A DNA stretch of 64,000 bases, from positions 1 to 64,000 of the forward strand of contig CANRIP010000007.1 of NCBI GenBank assembly GCA_947630715.1, in the 5' to 3' direction. Both the position numbers and the translations under genes were made by a program. Below, piece after piece: positions 15,102 through 64,000 of this stretch; position 1 is the stretch's first letter; the number at the start of each line of letters is the position of its first letter. The notes under the pieces were generated by a model. That model did no database searches, had not been told where the DNA came from, and saw only the letters and a program-made list of their open reading frames with translations. Origin of the DNA: an uncultured Acetatifactor sp. (GTDB taxonomy: Bacteria > Bacillota > Clostridia > Lachnospirales > Lachnospiraceae).

Positions 15102-15198
15102 TTACACCTCATTTCCGCGCTGATCTTTGCGCATAACGAGTTTGTGTCAAGCAGCGCGCGGACACAAATCTCGCGATTGAAAATTTTAATTTTCAATC
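15102..15198 (-). repeat. Dispersed Shine-Dalgarno-bearing element, long form (copy 1)
   Basis: In transcription order it begins with an AT-rich palindrome (arms GATTGAAAAT and ATTTTCAATC, 15175-15198). It continues with a 41-bp segment holding an 8-bp inverted repeat (TTTGTGTC/GACACAAA), then GCGCAAAGATCAGCGC, and ends in GAGGTGTAA followed by AAATG. Here the ATG opens only a 4-codon frame, so the element does not serve a gene start. It abuts the folD stop codon (15199). It is 97 bp long and nearly identical to the copy at 44861-44957. Confidence 0.85.
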
Positions 15199-16038
15199 TT
15201 ACACGCTCCGCCCCTCCACGCAGTTGTACATCAGCATGGCCACGGTCATGGGGCCGACGCCCCCGGGGACAGGCGTAATGGCCGAGGTATGGGGAGCCAC
15301 GCTGTCAAAGTCCACGTCCCCGCAAAGCTTGTTGTCCGCGTTTCTGTGGATCCCCACGTCGATGACCACCGCCCCCTCCTTCACATAATCCGCCGTCACA
15401 AACTTCGGTTTTCCCACCGCCACCACCAGAATGTCGGCGCGCCTTGTGATCTCCTTCAGGTTTTTGGTCCGGGAATGACACACCGTAACCGTCCCGTTTT
15501 CCCGCAGGAGCAGCATTGCCATGGGCTTTCCCACAATATTGCTTCGTCCCAGCACCACGCATTCCTTCCCCTCGATTGCGATCCCGGAACGCTTTAAAAG
15601 CTGGATCACGCCCGCCGGCGTACAGGACACGAAACCCGGACGGCCAATGCTTACGTTTCCCACATTGACGGGGTGGAAACCGTCCACATCCTTGTCCGGC
15701 GAGATGGCCATTAACACCCTGTCGCTGTCAATGTGCTCTGGCAGGGGCAACTGCACCAGAATGCCGCCCACCTGCGGATTTTCGTTTAATTCCCCGATCA
15801 GCTCCAAAAGCTCCTCCTGGGAGGTGTCCTCCTTGCGCTGGTACACCAGGGACTCGATACCCACATAGGCGCAGGCATTTTTCTTATTGTTGACATACAC
15901 GCTGGACGCAGGGTCATTCCCCACCTGAATCACCGCCAGGGTGAAGGTTTTTCCCTGCTCCTTCAGCGCGGCCGCCTTCTCCCGCAGTTCGTCCCTGATC
16001 TCCTGTGAAATTTTTTTCCCGTCAATGATCTGATACAT
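15199..16038 (-). CDS. folD: Methylenetetrahydrofolate dehydrogenase/cyclohydrolase
   Basis: FolD oxidises 5,10-methylene-THF to methenyl-THF with NADP and hydrolyses it to 10-formyl-THF in cytoplasmic one-carbon metabolism. The 279-residue length is standard. Diagnostic motifs are YVNNKKNACAYVGI with the catalytic lysine (about 52-53), VQLPLPEH, DKDVDGFH, GRSNIVGKP (NADP site) and the C-terminal TPVPGGVGPMTVAMLM. The start has GGGAGG upstream. It follows an intergenic 21-bp repeat array after the protease gene and is immediately followed by a dispersed repeat element. Confidence 0.96.
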   Translation of the reverse strand: MYQIIDGKKISQEIRDELREKAAALKEQGKTFTLAVIQVGNDPASSVYVNNKKNACAYVGIESLVYQRKEDTSQEELLELIGELNENPQVGGILVQLPLPEHIDSDRVLMAISPDKDVDGFHPVNVGNVSIGRPGFVSCTPAGVIQLLKRSGIAIEGKECVVLGRSNIVGKPMAMLLLRENGTVTVCHSRTKNLKEITRRADILVVAVGKPKFVTADYVKEGAVVIDVGIHRNADNKLCGDVDFDSVAPHTSAITPVPGGVGPMTVAMLMYNCVEGRSV

Positions 16039-28154: not shown

Positions 28155-28210
28155 TTACACCTCATTTCCGCGCTGATCTTTGCGCAGATTGAAAATTTTA
28201 ATTTTCAATC
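28155..28210 (-). repeat. Dispersed Shine-Dalgarno-bearing element, short form (copy 2)
   Basis: This is the 56-bp form: palindrome (arms GATTGAAAAT/ATTTTCAATC, 28187-28210), GCGCAAAGATCAGCGC stem, then GGAAATGAGGTGTAA directly before AAATG, the start of the FHA gene. The flank before the palindrome is GGCAGGAGGAA, itself a perfect Shine-Dalgarno. Removing the element would place that AGGAGG at normal distance from the same ATG. Confidence 0.88.
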
Positions 28211-28242
28211 TTCCTCCTGCCGCCGCTGCGGCTGTCCATGAT

Positions 28243-37623: not shown

Positions 37624-38949
37624 TTACTGAGATACATAACCGGATACATAACCGCCATTCTCCTTGATAAAGTCTACGGGAGAATAGTCGGTGATAGGGT
37701 TAAAATCCAGAGTGAGCCAACGCAGATTCGTCAAACCCGATAGATTGCTGATATCTGTGATCTGGTTGCTTTCCAAACCTAAGGCTTGCAAATTCGTCAA
37801 ACCCGATAGATTGCTGATATCTGTGATCTGGTTGCTTTCCAAATATAAGTCTTGCAAATTTGTCAAACCCGATAGACTACTGATATCCGTGATCTGGTTA
37901 TCTCCCAACTCTAAAGCAGTCAAATTCGTCAAACCTCTTAAGCTGCTGATATCAGTGATTTGGTTAAAATCCAAAAGTAATATCTCCAAATTTGTCAAAT
38001 TAGACAGACTGCTGATATCAGTGATTTGGTTATAATCCAAATATAAGTTAGTCAAATTTGTCAAATTAGACAGACTGCTGATATCCGTGATCGAGTTCAT
38101 ACTCAAATTTAATGTTTCCAAATTTGTCAAACTCGATAGACTGCTGATATCTGTGATCTGGTTTTCAGACAAACCTAAGTCTTGCAAATTTGTCAAACCC
38201 GATAAACTGCTGATATCCGTGATCTCGTTGTCATACAAATATAATGTTTCCAAATTTGTCAAACTCGATAGACTGCTGATATCCGTGATCTCGTTGTAAG
38301 ACAAAGCTAAAGTCTGCAAGTTTGTCAGATACGCTAAGCTGCTGATATCCTTTATACCTTTGCTACTTAGTATCAACTCGGTGATATCTTTCACATCCCC
38401 GCAAGTGATATCCCCCGTAGCAATCCCTATCTGCTCCCGCATAGCTTGTTCCAGATTTTCATCCTGCCATGAGATCACATAATCATCCGGCCATTGTGCC
38501 GGCAGGGTTTCCGGGGGTTCTGTGGATTCCGGAGTTTCCGCAGGTTCCGGAGTCTGCGCGGAGGCTGTCTCCTGCTCCATGGCCTGGATCAGCAGTTCCA
38601 CTTCATCCTGCTTTGCCTGGATTTCCTGGGACTGGGTCTGGGTATAGCCTTCCGCCAGCACTTCCTGGGCTTTCTGCGGTTCTTCCATGGCAATGTATAC
38701 GTCTGCCAGCCCTATGTAAGCCTCCACGTTCTTCGGGTCTATGGCAATGGCGGCCTCATATGCCGCTATGGCGTTCTCATAGTCCAGTTCCGCCAGATAC
38801 CGGGCGCCCATTTCCAACTGCTCCGCCAGATTTCCGCCTTTTTTCCCGCCCGCGCTGGCTAAAACAACGCAGAGTGCGGCAACGCACAGCGCCGCCGCCA
38901 CTACCGCAATGACAATGATTTTTCGGTTAAATTTTTTTTCTGATTTCAT
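37624..38949 (-). CDS. Anchored TPR/leucine-rich-repeat protein (paralogue 1)
   Basis: The 441-residue protein starts with a basic stretch and a membrane helix (about 10-33, no lipobox). A TPR pair follows (about 40-105; YENAIAAYEAAIAIDPKNVEAYIGLADVYIAM), then a Thr/Pro/Glu-rich linker (about 125-150). About ten leucine-rich repeats of 22 residues make up the rest (consensus LTNLxxLxLxxNxITDISSLSG, SDS22/internalin class). The LRR domain should face outward. It is the nearest of three tandem paralogues to the Tad operon. The ATG at 38949 is 12 nt from GGAGGA, a rather long spacing. Confidence 0.88.
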   Translation of the reverse strand: MKSEKKFNRKIIVIAVVAAALCVAALCVVLASAGGKKGGNLAEQLEMGARYLAELDYENAIAAYEAAIAIDPKNVEAYIGLADVYIAMEEPQKAQEVLAEGYTQTQSQEIQAKQDEVELLIQAMEQETASAQTPEPAETPESTEPPETLPAQWPDDYVISWQDENLEQAMREQIGIATGDITCGDVKDITELILSSKGIKDISSLAYLTNLQTLALSYNEITDISSLSSLTNLETLYLYDNEITDISSLSGLTNLQDLGLSENQITDISSLSSLTNLETLNLSMNSITDISSLSNLTNLTNLYLDYNQITDISSLSNLTNLEILLLDFNQITDISSLRGLTNLTALELGDNQITDISSLSGLTNLQDLYLESNQITDISNLSGLTNLQALGLESNQITDISNLSGLTNLRWLTLDFNPITDYSPVDFIKENGGYVSGYVSQ

Positions 38950-39274
38950 AGTGTCAATGAATTCCTCCCCGTGAAAATTCTCCCCTTAGAAATTTGTTTG
39001 CTTTGAAACCGGCGTTTTGCCTGTTTCCCTGAGGACAAATTCCTGTCCCGCTTGCAGATTTTGTCAAAATATGCAATTTTTCGTCCTCATTTTACCCCCC
39101 CGAAGTCTTTTGTCAAGCAACAGACCCTTTGAGTATAAATTCAGACCCTTTGAGTATAAATTCTGATGCGGGCACGGGCGCAAGCCGGGCAACCATGCGG
39201 GGCCAGTATTCATTGATGTTTTCTTTGTTTCTCTTTCATCAAGTGCTTACGCGGTAGGGCATCACTTATTTACA
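38950..39274. other. Intergenic region between LRR paralogues 1 and 2
   Basis: This 325-bp gap holds the leader and promoter of paralogue 1 (38950-39116), two direct 21-bp repeats (39121-39141 and 39142-39162, containing CCCTTTGAGTATAAATT), and a block of about 80 bp (39178-39257) that recurs almost unchanged at 40920-41003 after paralogue 3. It has no open frame with a ribosome binding site. The shared blocks show that the gene and flanks were duplicated together. Confidence 0.8.
39089..39116 (-). promoter_or_regulatory. Promoter of LRR paralogue 1
   Basis: TTGACA (39111-39116) and TAAAAT (39089-39094) are spaced by 16 bp including a run of seven G on the minus strand. The same boxes, spacing and G-run occur before paralogues 2 and 3. 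The leader to the ATG is about 135 nt. Confidence 0.8.
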
Positions 39275-40714
39275 CTACCACGTTACAGTAACAGTACCGC
39301 CATTCTCCGTGATAAAATCTACGGGAGAATAATCGGTGATAGGATTACTGTATAAAGTAAGCTCTTGCAGATTCGTCAAACCTCTTAAGCTGCTGATATC
39401 CGTGATCTGGTTAAATTGCAAATGTAACTCAGTCAAATTTGCCAAACCCGATAGACTGCTAATATCTGTGATCTGGTTATCTCCCAACGCTAAAACAGTC
39501 AAATTCGTCAAACCCGATAGATTGCTGATATCTGTGATCTGGTTATCAACCAAATATAATGATTCCAAATTCGTCAAACCCGATAAATTGCTGATATCTG
39601 TGATCTGGTTATCGTTTAAATTTAAGTAAGTCAAATTCGTCAAACCCGATAGACTACTGATATCCGTGATCTGGGTAAGGCTTAAATTTAAGTAAGTCAA
39701 ATTCGTCAAACCTGATAGACTGCTAATATCAGCAATATTATAAGAATCATGTATAGTTAATTCTGTTAAATTTGTCAAACCCGATAGACTACTGATATCC
39801 GTGATGATCGAGTTTTCACTCAAATATAATGTTTCCAAATTTGTCAAACCCGATAGGCCGCTGATATCCGTGAGCTGGTGGTTAGCATCCAGATATAATT
39901 CCTTCAAATTTGTCAAACCCGATAAACTGCTGATATCCGTGATCGAGTTTTCACCCAAATATAAGTTAGTCAAATTTGTCAAATTAGACAGACTGCTGAT
40001 ATCCGTAATCTGATTAGTCGCCAAAACTAAGTAAGTCAATTTTGTCAAACTCGATAGACTGCTGATATCCGTGATCTCGTTGTCATACAACTCTAAAGTC
40101 TGCAAGTTTGTCAGATACGCTAAGCTGCTGATATCCTTTATACCTTTGCTATTTAGTATCAACTCGGTGATATCTTTCACATCCCCGTAAGTGATATCCC
40201 CCGTAGCAATCCCTACCTGCTCCCGTATGGCTTGTTCCAGGTTCTCATCCTGCCATGAGATCACGTAATCATCCGACCATTGTGCCGGCAGGGTTTCCGG
40301 AGTTTCCGTGGATTCCAGGGTCTGATCGGATGCCGTCTCCTGCTCCATGGCCTGGATCAGCAGTTCCACTTCATCCTGCTTTGCCTGGATTTCCTGGGAC
40401 TGGGTCTGGGTATAGCCTTCCGCCAGCACTTCCTGGGCTTTCTGCGGTTCTTCCATGGCAATGTATACGTCTGCCAGCCCTATGTAAGCCTCCACGTTCT
40501 TCGGGTCTATGGCAATGGCGGCCTCATATGCCGCTATGGCGTTCTCATAGTCCAGTTCCGCCAGATACCGGGCGCCCATTTCCAACTGCTCGGCCAGATT
40601 GCCGCCCTTTTTCCCGCCCACGCCAATTAAGACGGCGCAGAGTGCGGCAACGCACAGCGCCGCCACCACCGCAATGACAATGATTTTTGGGGTAAATTTG
40701 TTTTCTGATTTCAT
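39275..40714 (-). CDS. Anchored TPR/leucine-rich-repeat protein (paralogue 2)
   Basis: The 479-residue protein has the same layout as its neighbours: N-terminal membrane helix (about 10-32), TPR pair (about 40-105), short acidic linker, and about twelve 22-residue LRRs of the ITDISSLSGLTNL type. Two LRR units carry one-residue length changes (NHQLTDISGL, NSIITDISSL), which would perturb the solenoid. The first 130 residues are nearly identical to paralogue 1, implying recent duplication or gene conversion. It ends DFITENGGTVTVTW. Confidence 0.88.
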   Translation of the reverse strand: MKSENKFTPKIIVIAVVAALCVAALCAVLIGVGGKKGGNLAEQLEMGARYLAELDYENAIAAYEAAIAIDPKNVEAYIGLADVYIAMEEPQKAQEVLAEGYTQTQSQEIQAKQDEVELLIQAMEQETASDQTLESTETPETLPAQWSDDYVISWQDENLEQAIREQVGIATGDITYGDVKDITELILNSKGIKDISSLAYLTNLQTLELYDNEITDISSLSSLTKLTYLVLATNQITDISSLSNLTNLTNLYLGENSITDISSLSGLTNLKELYLDANHQLTDISGLSGLTNLETLYLSENSIITDISSLSGLTNLTELTIHDSYNIADISSLSGLTNLTYLNLSLTQITDISSLSGLTNLTYLNLNDNQITDISNLSGLTNLESLYLVDNQITDISNLSGLTNLTVLALGDNQITDISSLSGLANLTELHLQFNQITDISSLRGLTNLQELTLYSNPITDYSPVDFITENGGTVTVTW

Positions 40715-40853
40715 AGTGTCAATGAATTCCTCCCAGTGAAAATTCTTTCCTTGGAAATTTGTCTGTTTGGGAACCGGCGTTTTGCCGGATTTCCTAAAGA
40801 CAAATCCCCGTCCCGCTTGCAGATTTTGTCAAAATTTGCAATTTTTCGTTCCC

Positions 40854-40881
40854 ATTTTACCCCCCCGAGGTATTTTGTCAA
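40854..40881 (-). promoter_or_regulatory. Promoter of LRR paralogue 2
   Basis: TTGACA (40876-40881), 16-bp spacer with a G-run, TAAAAT (40854-40859), minus strand. It is identical in its core elements to the promoters of paralogues 1 and 3. The rest of the gap 40715-41006 is leader DNA and the block shared with 39178-39257. Confidence 0.8.
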
Positions 40882-41006
40882 GCAACAGACACTTTGGGTA
40901 AGAATTTCGATGCAAATACAGGCGCAAGCCGAGCAGCCGTGCGGGGCCAGTATTCATTGATGTTTTCTTTGTTTCTCTTTCATCAAGCGCTTACCGCGGT
41001 AAGGCG

Positions 41007-43241
41007 TTACTTACCTACATAACCATAACCTCCATTTTCCGTAATAAAGTCTACGGGAGAGTAGTCGGTGATAGGGTTATTATGCAGATTGAGCCAATGC
41101 AGATTCCTCAAACCCGATAGATTGCTGATATCTGTGATCTGGTTATCCCTCAAATCTAAAGTCACCAAAGTTTTCAAACCCGATAGACCGCTGACATCTG
41201 TGATCTGGTTACTACCTAAATATAAAGATGTCAATTTGGCAAAACCCGATAGATCGCTGATATCTGTGATCTGGTTACTACTTAAATCTAACAACGTCAA
41301 ATTGGCAAAACCCGATAGACCGTTGATATGCTTTATCTGGTTTTCATTCAGATATAAGTCCTTCAAATTTGTCAAACTCGATAGACTGCTGATATCCGTG
41401 ATCTGGTTACCATCCAATTGTAACTCAGTCAAATTCGTCAAACTCGATAGACTGCTGATATCCGTGATCTGGTTACCATCCAATTGTAACTCAGTCAAAT
41501 TCGTCAAACCCGATAGACTTTTGATATCCGTGATTTGGTTATCACCCAAATTTAAGGAAGTCAAATTTGTCAAATTAGACAGACTGCTGATATCCGTGAT
41601 CTCGCTGTCACACAACTCTAAAGTCTGCAAGTTTGTCAGATACGCTAAGCTGCTGATATCCTTTATATAGGTAGACCACAAGCTTAAAACAGTTAAATTC
41701 GTCAAACTCGATAAACTACTGATATCCGTGAACTGGTTTTCACCCAAATTTAAGGAAGTCAAATTTGTCAAATTAGACAGACTGCTGATATCCGTGATCT
41801 GGTTCACTCGCAAATCTAAGGAAGTCAAATTTGTCAAACTCGATAGACCACTGATATCCGTTATCTGGTTACTATACAAATCTAAGGAAGTCAAATTCGT
41901 CAAACTCGATAAACTACTGATATCCGTTATCTGGTTACTAGACAAATCTAAGGAAGTCAAATTCGTCAAACTCGATAGACCACTGATATCCGTGAGGTAC
42001 CTGTTATAAGACAAATCTAAGGAAGTCAAATTCGTCAAACTCGATAGACCACTGATATCCGTGATCTGGTTATCGTACAAATATAAGTTAGTCAAATTTG
42101 TCAAACCCGATAGACCACTGATATCCGTGATCAGGTTCCTAGACAAATTTAAGGAAGTCAAATTTGTTAAACTCGATAAACTACTGATATCCGTGATCAG
42201 GTTAGTAGACAAATCTAAGGAAGTCAAATTTGTTAAATACACTAAACTGCTAATATCCGTTATATGACATCCAGTTAGTGTCAACTCGGAAATATCTTTC
42301 ACATCCCCGTAAGTGATATCCCCCGTAGCAATCCCTACCTGCTTCCGTATGGCTTGTTCCAGGCTCTCATTCTTCCAGTCAATCACATAATCATCCGGCC
42401 ATTTCCCCGGCAAGGGCTCCGGCGCATCCGCGGGTTTCGGCGTGGACTCAGGAGCAGGCTCCGGCGTAGTCACCGGGGGCTGGGTCTGCACAGGAGTATT
42501 CGTCGGCTGTGGCTGAGGTGTAGAAGTAGCCGCTGGCTGCGACTCAGGCGCAACAGTAGCCGTGGGCTGCGACTCAGGCGCAACAGTAGCCGCCGGTTGT
42601 GATTGAGGTGCAACAGTAGCCGCCGGTTGTGATTGAGGTGCAGAAGTAGCCGCAGGCTGCGACTCAGGCAGAACGGTAGGCGTAGCCGTGGGTTTCGCCG
42701 TGGGAGTTGCCGTGGGTTTTGCAGTAGCCGCAGGAGTTTCCGTAGGCTCCGGTGTATCCGTGGATTCCGGGGTTTCCGTAGGCTCCTGAGTTTCCGCAGG
42801 TTCCGATGTATCCGTAGGCTCCGGCGTTTCCGCAGGTTCCGGAGTCTGCGCGGAGGCTGTCTCCTGCTCCATGGCCTGGATCAGCAGTTCCACTTCATCC
42901 TGCTTTGCCTGGATTTCCTGGGACTGGGTCTGGGTATAGCCTTCCGCCAGCACCTCCTGGGCTTTCTCCAACTCTCCCATGGCGATATACACGTCTGCCA
43001 GCCCTATGTAAGCTTCCACGTTCTTCGGGTCTATGGCAATGGCGGCCTCATATGCCGCTATGGCGTTCTCATAGTCCATCTCCGCCAGATACCGAGCGCC
43101 CATTTCCAACTGCTCCGCCAGATTTCCGCCTTTTTTCCCGCCCGCGCTGGCTAAGACAGCGCAGAGTACGGCAATGCACAGCGCCGCCGCCACTACCGCA
43201 ATGACAATGATTTTTCGGTTAAATTTCTTTTCTGATTTCAT
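41007..43241 (-). CDS. Anchored TPR/leucine-rich-repeat protein (paralogue 3, longest)
   Basis: The 744-residue protein starts at ATG 43241. It has a membrane helix (about 10-33), a TPR pair (about 40-105), then a long Thr/Pro/Ala/Gln stalk (about 125-285) with units of the type ESQPAATVAPQ. About eighteen LRRs of 22 residues follow. The stalk is absent from paralogues 1 and 2, so this one should project furthest from the membrane. Several adjacent LRR units are identical or nearly so at DNA level, showing recent expansion of 66-bp units. Confidence 0.88.
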   Translation of the reverse strand: MKSEKKFNRKIIVIAVVAAALCIAVLCAVLASAGGKKGGNLAEQLEMGARYLAEMDYENAIAAYEAAIAIDPKNVEAYIGLADVYIAMGELEKAQEVLAEGYTQTQSQEIQAKQDEVELLIQAMEQETASAQTPEPAETPEPTDTSEPAETQEPTETPESTDTPEPTETPAATAKPTATPTAKPTATPTVLPESQPAATSAPQSQPAATVAPQSQPAATVAPESQPTATVAPESQPAATSTPQPQPTNTPVQTQPPVTTPEPAPESTPKPADAPEPLPGKWPDDYVIDWKNESLEQAIRKQVGIATGDITYGDVKDISELTLTGCHITDISSLVYLTNLTSLDLSTNLITDISSLSSLTNLTSLNLSRNLITDISGLSGLTNLTNLYLYDNQITDISGLSSLTNLTSLDLSYNRYLTDISGLSSLTNLTSLDLSSNQITDISSLSSLTNLTSLDLYSNQITDISGLSSLTNLTSLDLRVNQITDISSLSNLTNLTSLNLGENQFTDISSLSSLTNLTVLSLWSTYIKDISSLAYLTNLQTLELCDSEITDISSLSNLTNLTSLNLGDNQITDIKSLSGLTNLTELQLDGNQITDISSLSSLTNLTELQLDGNQITDISSLSSLTNLKDLYLNENQIKHINGLSGFANLTLLDLSSNQITDISDLSGFAKLTSLYLGSNQITDVSGLSGLKTLVTLDLRDNQITDISNLSGLRNLHWLNLHNNPITDYSPVDFITENGGYGYVGK

Positions 43242-43313
43242 AGTGTCAATAAACTCCTCCCCGTGGATCTTCTCCCCTTGGAATTTTGTCGAAATTTGCA
43301 ATTTTTCGTTCCC

Positions 43314-43341
43314 ATTTTACCCCCCCGAAGTATTTTGTCAA
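43314..43341 (-). promoter_or_regulatory. Promoter of LRR paralogue 3
   Basis: TTGACA (43336-43341), 16-bp spacer with a G-run, TAAAAT (43314-43319), minus strand; the same module as before the other two paralogues. The leader is shorter here (about 70 nt). Confidence 0.8.
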
Positions 43342-43503
43342 GCAGCAGAATTTTTCTCACCGAAACGCTCCGGCATATGGCAGACACCGATCCTTTCCGA
43401 TGCCGCCATAGAACGCGGTGCCGCCTTGTTCGGAAAAGCCACTTTCGTCATGGACAGGGGGATATGGTGACAACAAGATGTTCTTTCAAGGAAAAGAAAA
43501 CAC

Positions 43504-44860: not shown

Positions 44861-44957
44861 TTATACCTCATTTCCGCGCTGATCTTTGCGCATAACGAGT
44901 TTGTGTCAAGCAGTGCGCGGACACAAATCTCGCGATTGAAAATTTTAATTTTCAATC
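44861..44957 (-). repeat. Dispersed Shine-Dalgarno-bearing element, long form (copy 3a)
   Basis: This is a 97-bp form with palindrome at 44934-44957, a 41-bp insert with the TTTGTGTC/GACACAAA inverted repeat, the GCGC stem, and terminal GAGGTATAA directly before AAATG of spoVAB. It differs from the copy at 15102-15198 at only two or so positions. It is joined head to tail with a short copy. Confidence 0.88.
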
Positions 44958-45013: not shown

Positions 45014-45067
45014 TTTACCTCCCGCCCGTTTCTTACAGTATCCGCAGAAGTCCGGAAAATATTCCTC

Positions 45068-63486: not shown

Positions 63487-63788
63487 CCTATCCTTCCTTT
63501 CCGCCGCAAGGGACACGGCAAACGCGCTTGTCTGATTTCAGTTTAATATACTTTTCTCCCCCAGACTCCTTAAACCTTGTGAAATCCTGCGCAATTCTTG
63601 CTATTTGTCCATCCAAACTGGACTGGTAAAAAAGTTTTATTCTGGCACTTTTAATCAAACCACTTTTTCTATACACTGTCACTAAACCACCGGTGGAACA
63701 CTAAAACAAAACCACAGATTTGCCCGCGGGCGCCAGTCCGCCCGGACAGACCGGGAGACGCGGCCACGCGGAGCAGGATGGGAGGAAA
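63487..63788. promoter_or_regulatory. Divergent regulatory region of the xylan cluster
   Basis: This 300-bp gap separates the esterase gene from a divergent plus-strand gene. It holds a perfect 10-bp palindrome CCACCGGTGG (63687-63696) flanked on both sides by CACTAAA, a plausible operator. It also holds TATAGA (63669-63674, minus strand) as a possible -10 box without a good -35. A 64-codon minus-strand frame here is not convincing as a gene. Confidence 0.45.
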
Positions 63789-63844
63789 GATTGAAAATTA
63801 AAATTTTCAATCTGCGCAAAGATCAGCGCGGAAATGAGGTGTAA
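63789..63844 (+). repeat. Dispersed Shine-Dalgarno-bearing element, short form (copy 4)
   Basis: This is a 56-bp copy on the plus strand: palindrome (63789-63812), GCGCAAAGATCAGCGC stem, GGAAATGAGGTGTAA ending 2 bp before the ATG at 63847. The flank before it is GGGAGGAAA, again a Shine-Dalgarno-like sequence. It is the only copy in this orientation, and it faces the only plus-strand gene of the region. Confidence 0.88.
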
Positions 63845-63846
63845 AT

Positions 63847-64000
63847 ATGGAAAATCAATCCAGGAAAAGCTATGGCCTGCTGCTGGCAGGAGTGATTCTT
63901 CTGGCCGTTGGAATTTTTCTGGCCGTCGTCACTTATCGGAACAGTTACCAGGAATCCGTCCGGACAGGAGAGGCCTTAAGTGAACTGAAGGAACAGATCC
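63847..64000 (+). CDS. N-terminus of a membrane-anchored protein (cut by window end)
   Basis: Fifty-one codons are visible from ATG 63847: a short basic start (MENQSRKSYG), a hydrophobic helix (about 10-28) and the beginning of a charged, helical region (SVRTGEALSELKEQI). The ribosome binding site GAGGTG is supplied by the adjacent repeat element. A sortase, a sensor or a simple anchored protein are all possible; too little is present to decide. Confidence 0.65.
   Translation, partial: MENQSRKSYGLLLAGVILLAVGIFLAVVTYRNSYQESVRTGEALSELKEQI

Follow-up and report, generated by a model that had tools for sequence, protein, structure and literature searches.

A short, probably mobile element between Shine-Dalgarno sequence and start codon in Acetatifactor and related Lachnospiraceae

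Elements in the window

The window, meaning the whole 64,000-nt stretch analysed here (contig CANRIP010000007.1, positions 1 to 64,000, from an uncultured Acetatifactor sp.), carries five copies of a short element at four loci. An initial annotation had reported these copies, and our search placed all five at exactly the positions it claimed, with 0 matches in 100 shuffles of the window. The elements and the Shine-Dalgarno sequences that they interrupt are as follows.

63780..63788, + strand: interrupted old Shine-Dalgarno, GGGAGGAAA
63789..63844, + strand: short-form element, 56 bp, with the palindrome at 63789-63812 and the core from 63814; in its 3′ part the Shine-Dalgarno GAGG at 63836-63839 (+), then the end TGTAA, 2 nt and ATG 63847
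45014..45023, − strand: interrupted old Shine-Dalgarno of spoVAB, GGGAGGTAAA
44958..45013, − strand: short-form element, first (transcriptionally upstream) of a tandem pair
44861..44957, − strand: long-form element, 97 bp, second of the tandem pair; its GAGGTATAA precedes spoVAB (ATG 44858-44856)
28211..28217, − strand: interrupted old Shine-Dalgarno, GGAGGAA
28155..28210, − strand: short-form element before a DUF6382 gene (ATG 28152-28150)
15102..15198, − strand: long-form element directly 3′ of the stop codon of a 279-aa ORF

At 28155, 44861 and 63789 the element ends in GAGGTRTAA, followed by 2 nt and then the ATG of a gene, and the opposite flank carries an older Shine-Dalgarno (28211-28217, 45014-45023 and 63780-63788), both as had been claimed. 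The gene after the 28155 copy, initially called an FHA protein, has a DUF6382 domain in a Pfam scan of its first 160 aa, and the gene after the 44861 copy matches Pfam SpoVAB; the protein from ATG 63847 gave one Pfam match only, below the cut-off. The 15102 copy follows an ORF at 15199-16038, and the ATG at +2 from its end (15099-15097) opens a 4-codon ORF only, the next long ORF lying about 90 nt further on with its own Shine-Dalgarno. Elsewhere in the window, positions 37647-43350 hold arrays with a period of 66 nt, in which 28 overlapping copies of 300 nt keep register, together with three 300-nt segments, of which two match the first at 92-93% identity. This suggests tandem repeat-rich paralogous genes.

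Copies in the genome and placement at start codons

Searching the window's own assembly, a 2.5 Mb MAG, for the element core with up to 3 mismatches gave 37 near-identical copies, 31 of them with an exact core, against 0 matches for a backwards control; beyond the 37 lie a diverged copy and another that a contig end truncates. Element length takes two exact values, 56 bp in 11 copies and 97 bp in 26. The 5′ part is a 24-bp palindrome, GATTGAAAAT-TAAA-ATTTTCAATC. A 41-nt hairpin domain may follow, then comes a core that contains GCGC, and the element closes with GAGGTRTAA.

Placement is narrow on both sides. The left flank ends in AA in 37/37 copies, compared with 3/59 ATGs in the window and 73/629 ATGs in the named loci that have AA at the equivalent place, both being crude sets of ATGs with a Shine-Dalgarno-like motif upstream. 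On the right, an ATG follows after 1-2 nt in 28/37 copies (2 nt in 24, and 1 nt in four, all of which have the variant end AAAA). Seven more abut another element, the neighbour in one case (L026) being only the first ten bases of an interrupted copy, and two (L001, L033) have neither an ATG nor a following element. Thus the concern that copies genome-wide might lie mostly away from start codons is not borne out. Four of the 28 ATG-bearing copies (L009, L015, L029, L031) precede only ORFs of less than 12 codons; one of these, L029 on G000:C40, lies about 130 nt downstream of a tmRNA gene, in the same direction, before an ATG without a long ORF. As first proposed, all copies appear to point with transcription. 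No promoter-like or terminator-like site was found in one element-bearing stretch (L002, 1300-1700).

The same placement holds in a wider sample. Among 64 sense matches in 60 chosen loci (68 rows before four antisense matches were removed, which were also removed from the pooled set and the Shine-Dalgarno comparison below), 60 have an ATG at −3 to +4, compared with 13% of random places over nearly the same range. In 54/64 the ATG also opens an ORF of 40 codons or longer (5% at random places), and a Shine-Dalgarno-like motif lies on the left in 43/64 (11.5% at random). We then pooled 140 copies, near relatives included, gathered with no ATG requirement: these 64, from loci mostly picked from the covariance-model matches listed; 45 from 70 further hand-picked loci; and the 31 remaining copies of the own genome. 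Of these, 126 lie at an ATG (−3 to +5) and 10 border another element, which leaves four at neither. Both this count and the Shine-Dalgarno comparison exclude every copy with an N nearby; loci from an ATG-requiring scan (100 of 107) stand outside the placement count and inside the Shine-Dalgarno comparison. Where elements are stacked, the junction reads GAGGTATAA joined directly to GATTG, and three consecutive 97-bp units occur in genome G066 (L206).

The genes behind these ATGs look like murF, tpiA, hisB, dut, aroB, yhbY and spoVAB, a cheV-like gene and the gamma subunit of a 2-oxoacid oxidoreductase. A Pfam scan of ten query stretches from nine genes put eight above the cut-off (DUF6382, SpoVAB, Mur ligase, TIM, IGPD, YhbY, CheW and POR), the names dut and aroB coming from sequence, outside that scan. 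The genes are functionally mixed, with no evident common theme.

Distribution and related repeats

A covariance model found the family in 36/121 genomes of the genus, the own genome having 35 matches, G108 23, G066 22 and G138 19. In an order-wide draw, 5/295 genomes had matches, among them the own genome and a second genome of the genus (G123), in which two of five matches have, by eye, GTG next and not directly ATG. The other three carriers belong to two other genera of the family and to one other family, and their six matches are all at an ATG. Among the matches listed are Lachnospiraceae, related MAGs and a small number of isolates, and many of the records bear the label Acetatifactor. A cultured bacterium, Lachnospiraceae bacterium 1XD21-87, matches the core pattern. 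Subfamilies differ in the palindrome: copies starting GAT have AA on the left in 85/91 cases, while those starting GTG often have TA there (11/17 in one sample, 6/13 in another).

A second element family has the same build, namely GTTTGAAAGTAAACTTTCAAAY, an optional hairpin, a hairpin and GGGGTATAA, and occurs in the own genome (L007, L025, L028, L039) and at many loci of G012. Its placement is also the same (GTTTGAAAGTAAACTTTCAAA ... GGGGTATAA-ATG); of 26 distinct copies in the fetched loci, 13 have an ATG within 8 nt, 10 adjoin another element and three do neither. The hairpin module GAGGGGTGTTTACACACCCTC is common to both families, so modules appear to have been exchanged between them.

Further repeats were seen in passing. 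A third repeat of about 215 nt in L026 (G000:C21) breaks into a palindrome just behind GATTGAAAAT, and its end, GAAAGGAATGGATA, lies near an ATG; a shorter version is present upstream of elements in G012 (L045). Possibly this repeat is one more element that brings a ribosome binding site. Variants at six loci (L226, L227, L230, L238, L254, L255) carry extra small hairpins at hairpin loops or junctions, for example AGTCATAAATGACT, AAGCCATGTATGGCTT and GGGGTGTTTACACACCC, as if built from swappable hairpins.

Empty orthologous sites

Orthologous leaders, drawn like our other comparisons mostly from MAGs, were compared for a clean junction between the flanking Shine-Dalgarno and the ATG. In the filled cheV-like leader, CGAGGTGGAA is followed by the element and then by AA-ATG. 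Five orthologues (G035, G005, G012, G013, G030) read CGAGGTGGAA-NN-ATG and a sixth (G061) reads CGAGGTGCGGGGT-ATG, so that the insertion is clean in 5/6 relatives; the base before CGAGG is A in the filled site and G in the relatives. For a tetR-family gene the filled leader contains two stacked elements (GGAGGTGGAA, second-family element, first-family element, AC-ATG), and both relatives show a clean insertion (2/2): G108 has GGAGGTGAGAGA-ATG, with spacing identical to that of the filled leader, and G066 has GGAGGTGAGCGGGT-ATG, the sequence further upstream being alignable by eye. These empty sites match the prediction that deleting the element would rejoin the old Shine-Dalgarno to the same ATG at normal spacing.

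Base-level empty sites come from these two genes only. At tpiA, 28 of 29 relatives' loci (29 of 37 relative matches) lack the element and the 29th (G001) has a related fragment. The other orthologous leaders examined are without a first-family element, most of them too diverged upstream for a base-by-base junction. The murF leader of G012 holds an apparent decayed second-family element.

Fate of the old and the new Shine-Dalgarno

We scored the pairing of the old site and of the element's own site with the anti-Shine-Dalgarno, calling a site strong at −5 kcal/mol or better, and took palindrome folding energy as the clock of element age. The comparison uses 185 of 209 copies, with left-tandem copies left out; subfamilies and relatives are pooled, and some of the copies had been selected for conservation of the core. 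Old sites are strong in 110/135 copies with an intact palindrome, 6/12 with an intermediate one and 16/38 with a decayed one, random 16-mers being strong in 20% of cases. The element's own site is strong in 130/135, 11/12 and 36/38, respectively. Old-site strength tracks palindrome energy (Spearman 0.42, p 4e-9, uncorrected for kinship and subfamily), while the element's site has no trend (Spearman −0.07, p 0.37). Decay of the old site beside a lasting element site is as expected if insertion hits a functional site and translation depends on the new one from then on; conservation thus suggests that translation uses the element's own Shine-Dalgarno.

Predicted RNA fold

Fold analysis was based on 75 distinct rows, in an alignment fitted to the hairpins (a third candidate hairpin included) and not to the pseudoknot; the shuffles used for covariation keep relatedness in. 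The first hairpin has changes on both sides at all 10 pairs and the second at 9/12. For hairpins and pseudoknot together, 92% of cells are paired and 0/500 shuffles reach any of five measures. The pseudoknot would pair the second hairpin's loop with the bases just before the Shine-Dalgarno. Its score, percentage paired and number of cells changed on both sides are reached by 0/500 shuffles, its number of pairs changed on both sides by 186/500 and its number of pair types by 176/500; two of its eight pairs are weak (73.5% paired). Matched loop-tail energies are −12.75 versus −11.87 ± 0.15 when shuffled, based on 132/170 parsed sequences (32 failed and six had long loops). These gave 90 distinct pairs, and misreadings among them weaken both values. 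The third hairpin, H3 (GCGC/GCGC), was rejected: it lacks covariation, 428/500 shuffles reach its score, and its energies are no better than shuffled ones (−6.96 versus −7.03). As H3 does not covary, the pseudoknot is preferred. The long form is therefore predicted to comprise two covarying hairpins and a moderately supported pseudoknot, with the Shine-Dalgarno unpaired in single-sequence folds of the four sequences tried. Since the short form is without the second hairpin, and hence without the pseudoknot, that part of the fold is not essential to spread.

Search for a mover or carrier

The initial annotation had asked for a transposase or other enzyme that mobilises the element, and none was found. 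Y1 transposase was tried as a mover in 19 genomes and the own genome, with no correlation with element number seen. There was no Y1 match in five of seven element-rich relatives, namely G066 (96% complete, 22 copies), G062 (96%), G106 (86%), G012 (73%) and G138 (64%), a negative weakened by three of the five being less than 90% complete. Matches were present in G108 and G090 and in four element-free genomes (G002, G006, G011, G014), and the only Y1 of the own genome lies truncated at a contig end with an internal stop.

No autonomous copy was found in the own genome, where 37 of the 38 palindromes have a core and the remaining one is truncated by a contig end. The fetched loci, a biased sample since most were chosen around elements, gave 170 palindrome rows, and the two odd ones were both readings of a single palindrome beside a masked stretch. 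By inspection, the sole palindrome is at the 5′ end and has no partner at the other end as terminal inverted repeats would. AA occurs on the left and at the element's end, where a possible 2-bp duplication is indistinguishable from target choice. The search for plasmid carriage gave no plasmid match. Eighteen short unannotated human-faecal records labelled 'Bacteriophage sp.' match the element, and in the ten fetched (MT83xxxx, L157-L166) 10/10 copies end just before an ATG; these records are possibly scaffolds of bacteria that were deposited under phage. In IMG/VR each of two palindromes matched one contig, and a core pattern matched none. Rfam scans by E-value, covering 13 loci, gave no match on the element, including no intron match.

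Interpretation and alternatives

The initial annotation read the sequence as an insertion into ribosome binding sites that rebuilds the site it interrupts. This reading is supported by the comparisons above, including the two on which it might have failed: junctions at empty sites are clean where the leader can be aligned, and copies genome-wide lie mostly at start codons. Judged on family, position, orientation, clean insertion at two genes, tandem stacking, decay of the old site and hairpin covariation, we consider it probable that this is a small, non-autonomous mobile element, inserted in a single direction between Shine-Dalgarno and ATG and bringing a replacement Shine-Dalgarno. At 56 or 97 bp it is too short for an enzyme gene, and so non-autonomous. 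Insertion is in one orientation, directly behind an AA and some 2 nt ahead of the ATG, and would be targeted by an enzyme acting in trans; candidate routes of movement are a trans-acting recombinase or an RNA-based one. The incoming 3′ end, GAGGTRTAA-NN-ATG, would be a Shine-Dalgarno at suitable spacing from which translation could continue, so that insertion is tolerated even before housekeeping genes, and the old Shine-Dalgarno would turn redundant and decay. Because the element's end resembles its target, further copies can stack in tandem. In the long form, hairpins and a probable pseudoknot would fold the RNA up to the Shine-Dalgarno and leave it single-stranded, perhaps insulating it from upstream sequence; the fold may also be recognised during movement.

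More tentatively, and at somewhat short of even chances, the element may stand for a distinct class of mobile element, whose machinery recognises the initiation region (Shine-Dalgarno plus AA-NN-ATG, as DNA or mRNA), swaps the host signal and gradually moves many of a lineage's genes onto initiation sites that the element provides together with a folded RNA. If the insertion reading is true, this is selfish DNA made harmless by targeting the short gap before start codons and bringing a replacement signal. It would imply an integrating enzyme with an unusual target, offer a natural experiment in initiation-site swapping across many species, and give a strong start-codon marker for annotating these gut bacteria.

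The pattern could instead be made by selection, if insertion is only weakly targeted and most surviving copies are those that give back a functional Shine-Dalgarno. At essential genes selection must be at work, and the 1-2 nt spacing to the ATG held in the own genome would fit it. However, intergenic insertions elsewhere should then be tolerated, and only 2/37 and 4/140 copies lie at neither an ATG nor an element; the four copies before tiny ORFs still have their ATG at exactly +2, and AA on the left in 37/37 is far above the crude background. We therefore hold this account to be unlikely. A similarly small chance goes to a mobile regulatory leader, riboswitch-like or protein-responsive, kept for common control of genes: covarying hairpins and a moderately supported pseudoknot beside the Shine-Dalgarno give a layout similar to that of several translational riboswitches, yet the downstream genes lack an evident theme, the orthologues examined lack the element, the 13 loci gave no Rfam match on it, and the short form is without the pseudoknot domain.

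Movement of the IS200/IS605 or REP/RAYT type, in which a Y1 (HUH) transposase recognises single-stranded hairpins and inserts 3′ of a short motif with no long target duplication, would account for the hairpins, the fixed orientation and the lack of a long duplication. The GATTG type is also mostly AA-flanked and ends in AA and, more loosely, some GTGTG types are TA-flanked and end near TA. What makes this decidedly unlikely is that no Y1 match was found in 5/7 element-rich relatives (three of those five less than 90% complete) while four element-free genomes have one, that the own genome's only Y1 is at a contig end with an internal stop, and that, set beside the layout of IS608, a hairpin at the very end of the element leaves hardly any space for a guide. 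If the element were an intron-like insert, its excision from the mRNA would bring the old Shine-Dalgarno back to its normal distance from the ATG; with a length of 56-97 nt, no Rfam intron match at the 13 loci scanned, and with the old Shine-Dalgarno decaying while the element's persists, the opposite of what it predicts, this is highly improbable.

Comparison with known systems

Small dispersed mobile repeats of bacteria include MITEs, ERIC/IRU, RUP, BOX, Correia and RPE. Like these, the element is short, non-coding, multicopy and near-identical between copies, presumably moved in trans, and able to fold as RNA. Unlike these, it shows no pair of terminal inverted repeats and at most a possible 2-bp target duplication, and it inserts one way at translation start sites with a replacement Shine-Dalgarno. 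REP/RAYT and other IS200/IS605-derived palindromic elements have hairpins, are orientation-specific and make no long duplication, all of which the element shares; it differs in that Y1 was not found in 5/7 element-rich relatives and that its target is the gap between Shine-Dalgarno and ATG. Tn7 at attTn7 and class C group II introns at terminators choose benign sites. The element likewise avoids harm by site choice, but its site falls within the region where ribosomes bind, at many genes, and is restored by the insertion.

The initial annotation knew of no named element with such a property, and none is described in the open-access literature searched, outside which most subscription papers lie. 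The text available of PMC4679880, PMC10969869 and PMC2229807 does not describe such an element, and a term search of the main text of the MITE review (PMC10969869) found no 'Shine', 'ribosom' or 'start codon'. According to the available text of PMC4679880, the TAACTGA direct repeats of marine Beggiatoaceae are dispersed, mostly a few nt upstream of start codons, with no functional pattern reported downstream. The element is likewise dispersed just before start codons of genes without a functional pattern. In contrast to it, the TAACTGA repeats, as that text presents them, are heptamer direct repeats of little Shine-Dalgarno character, which overlap the expected ribosome binding site and supply none (PMC4679880). 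The TAACTGA repeats are the nearest idea found in the literature searched.
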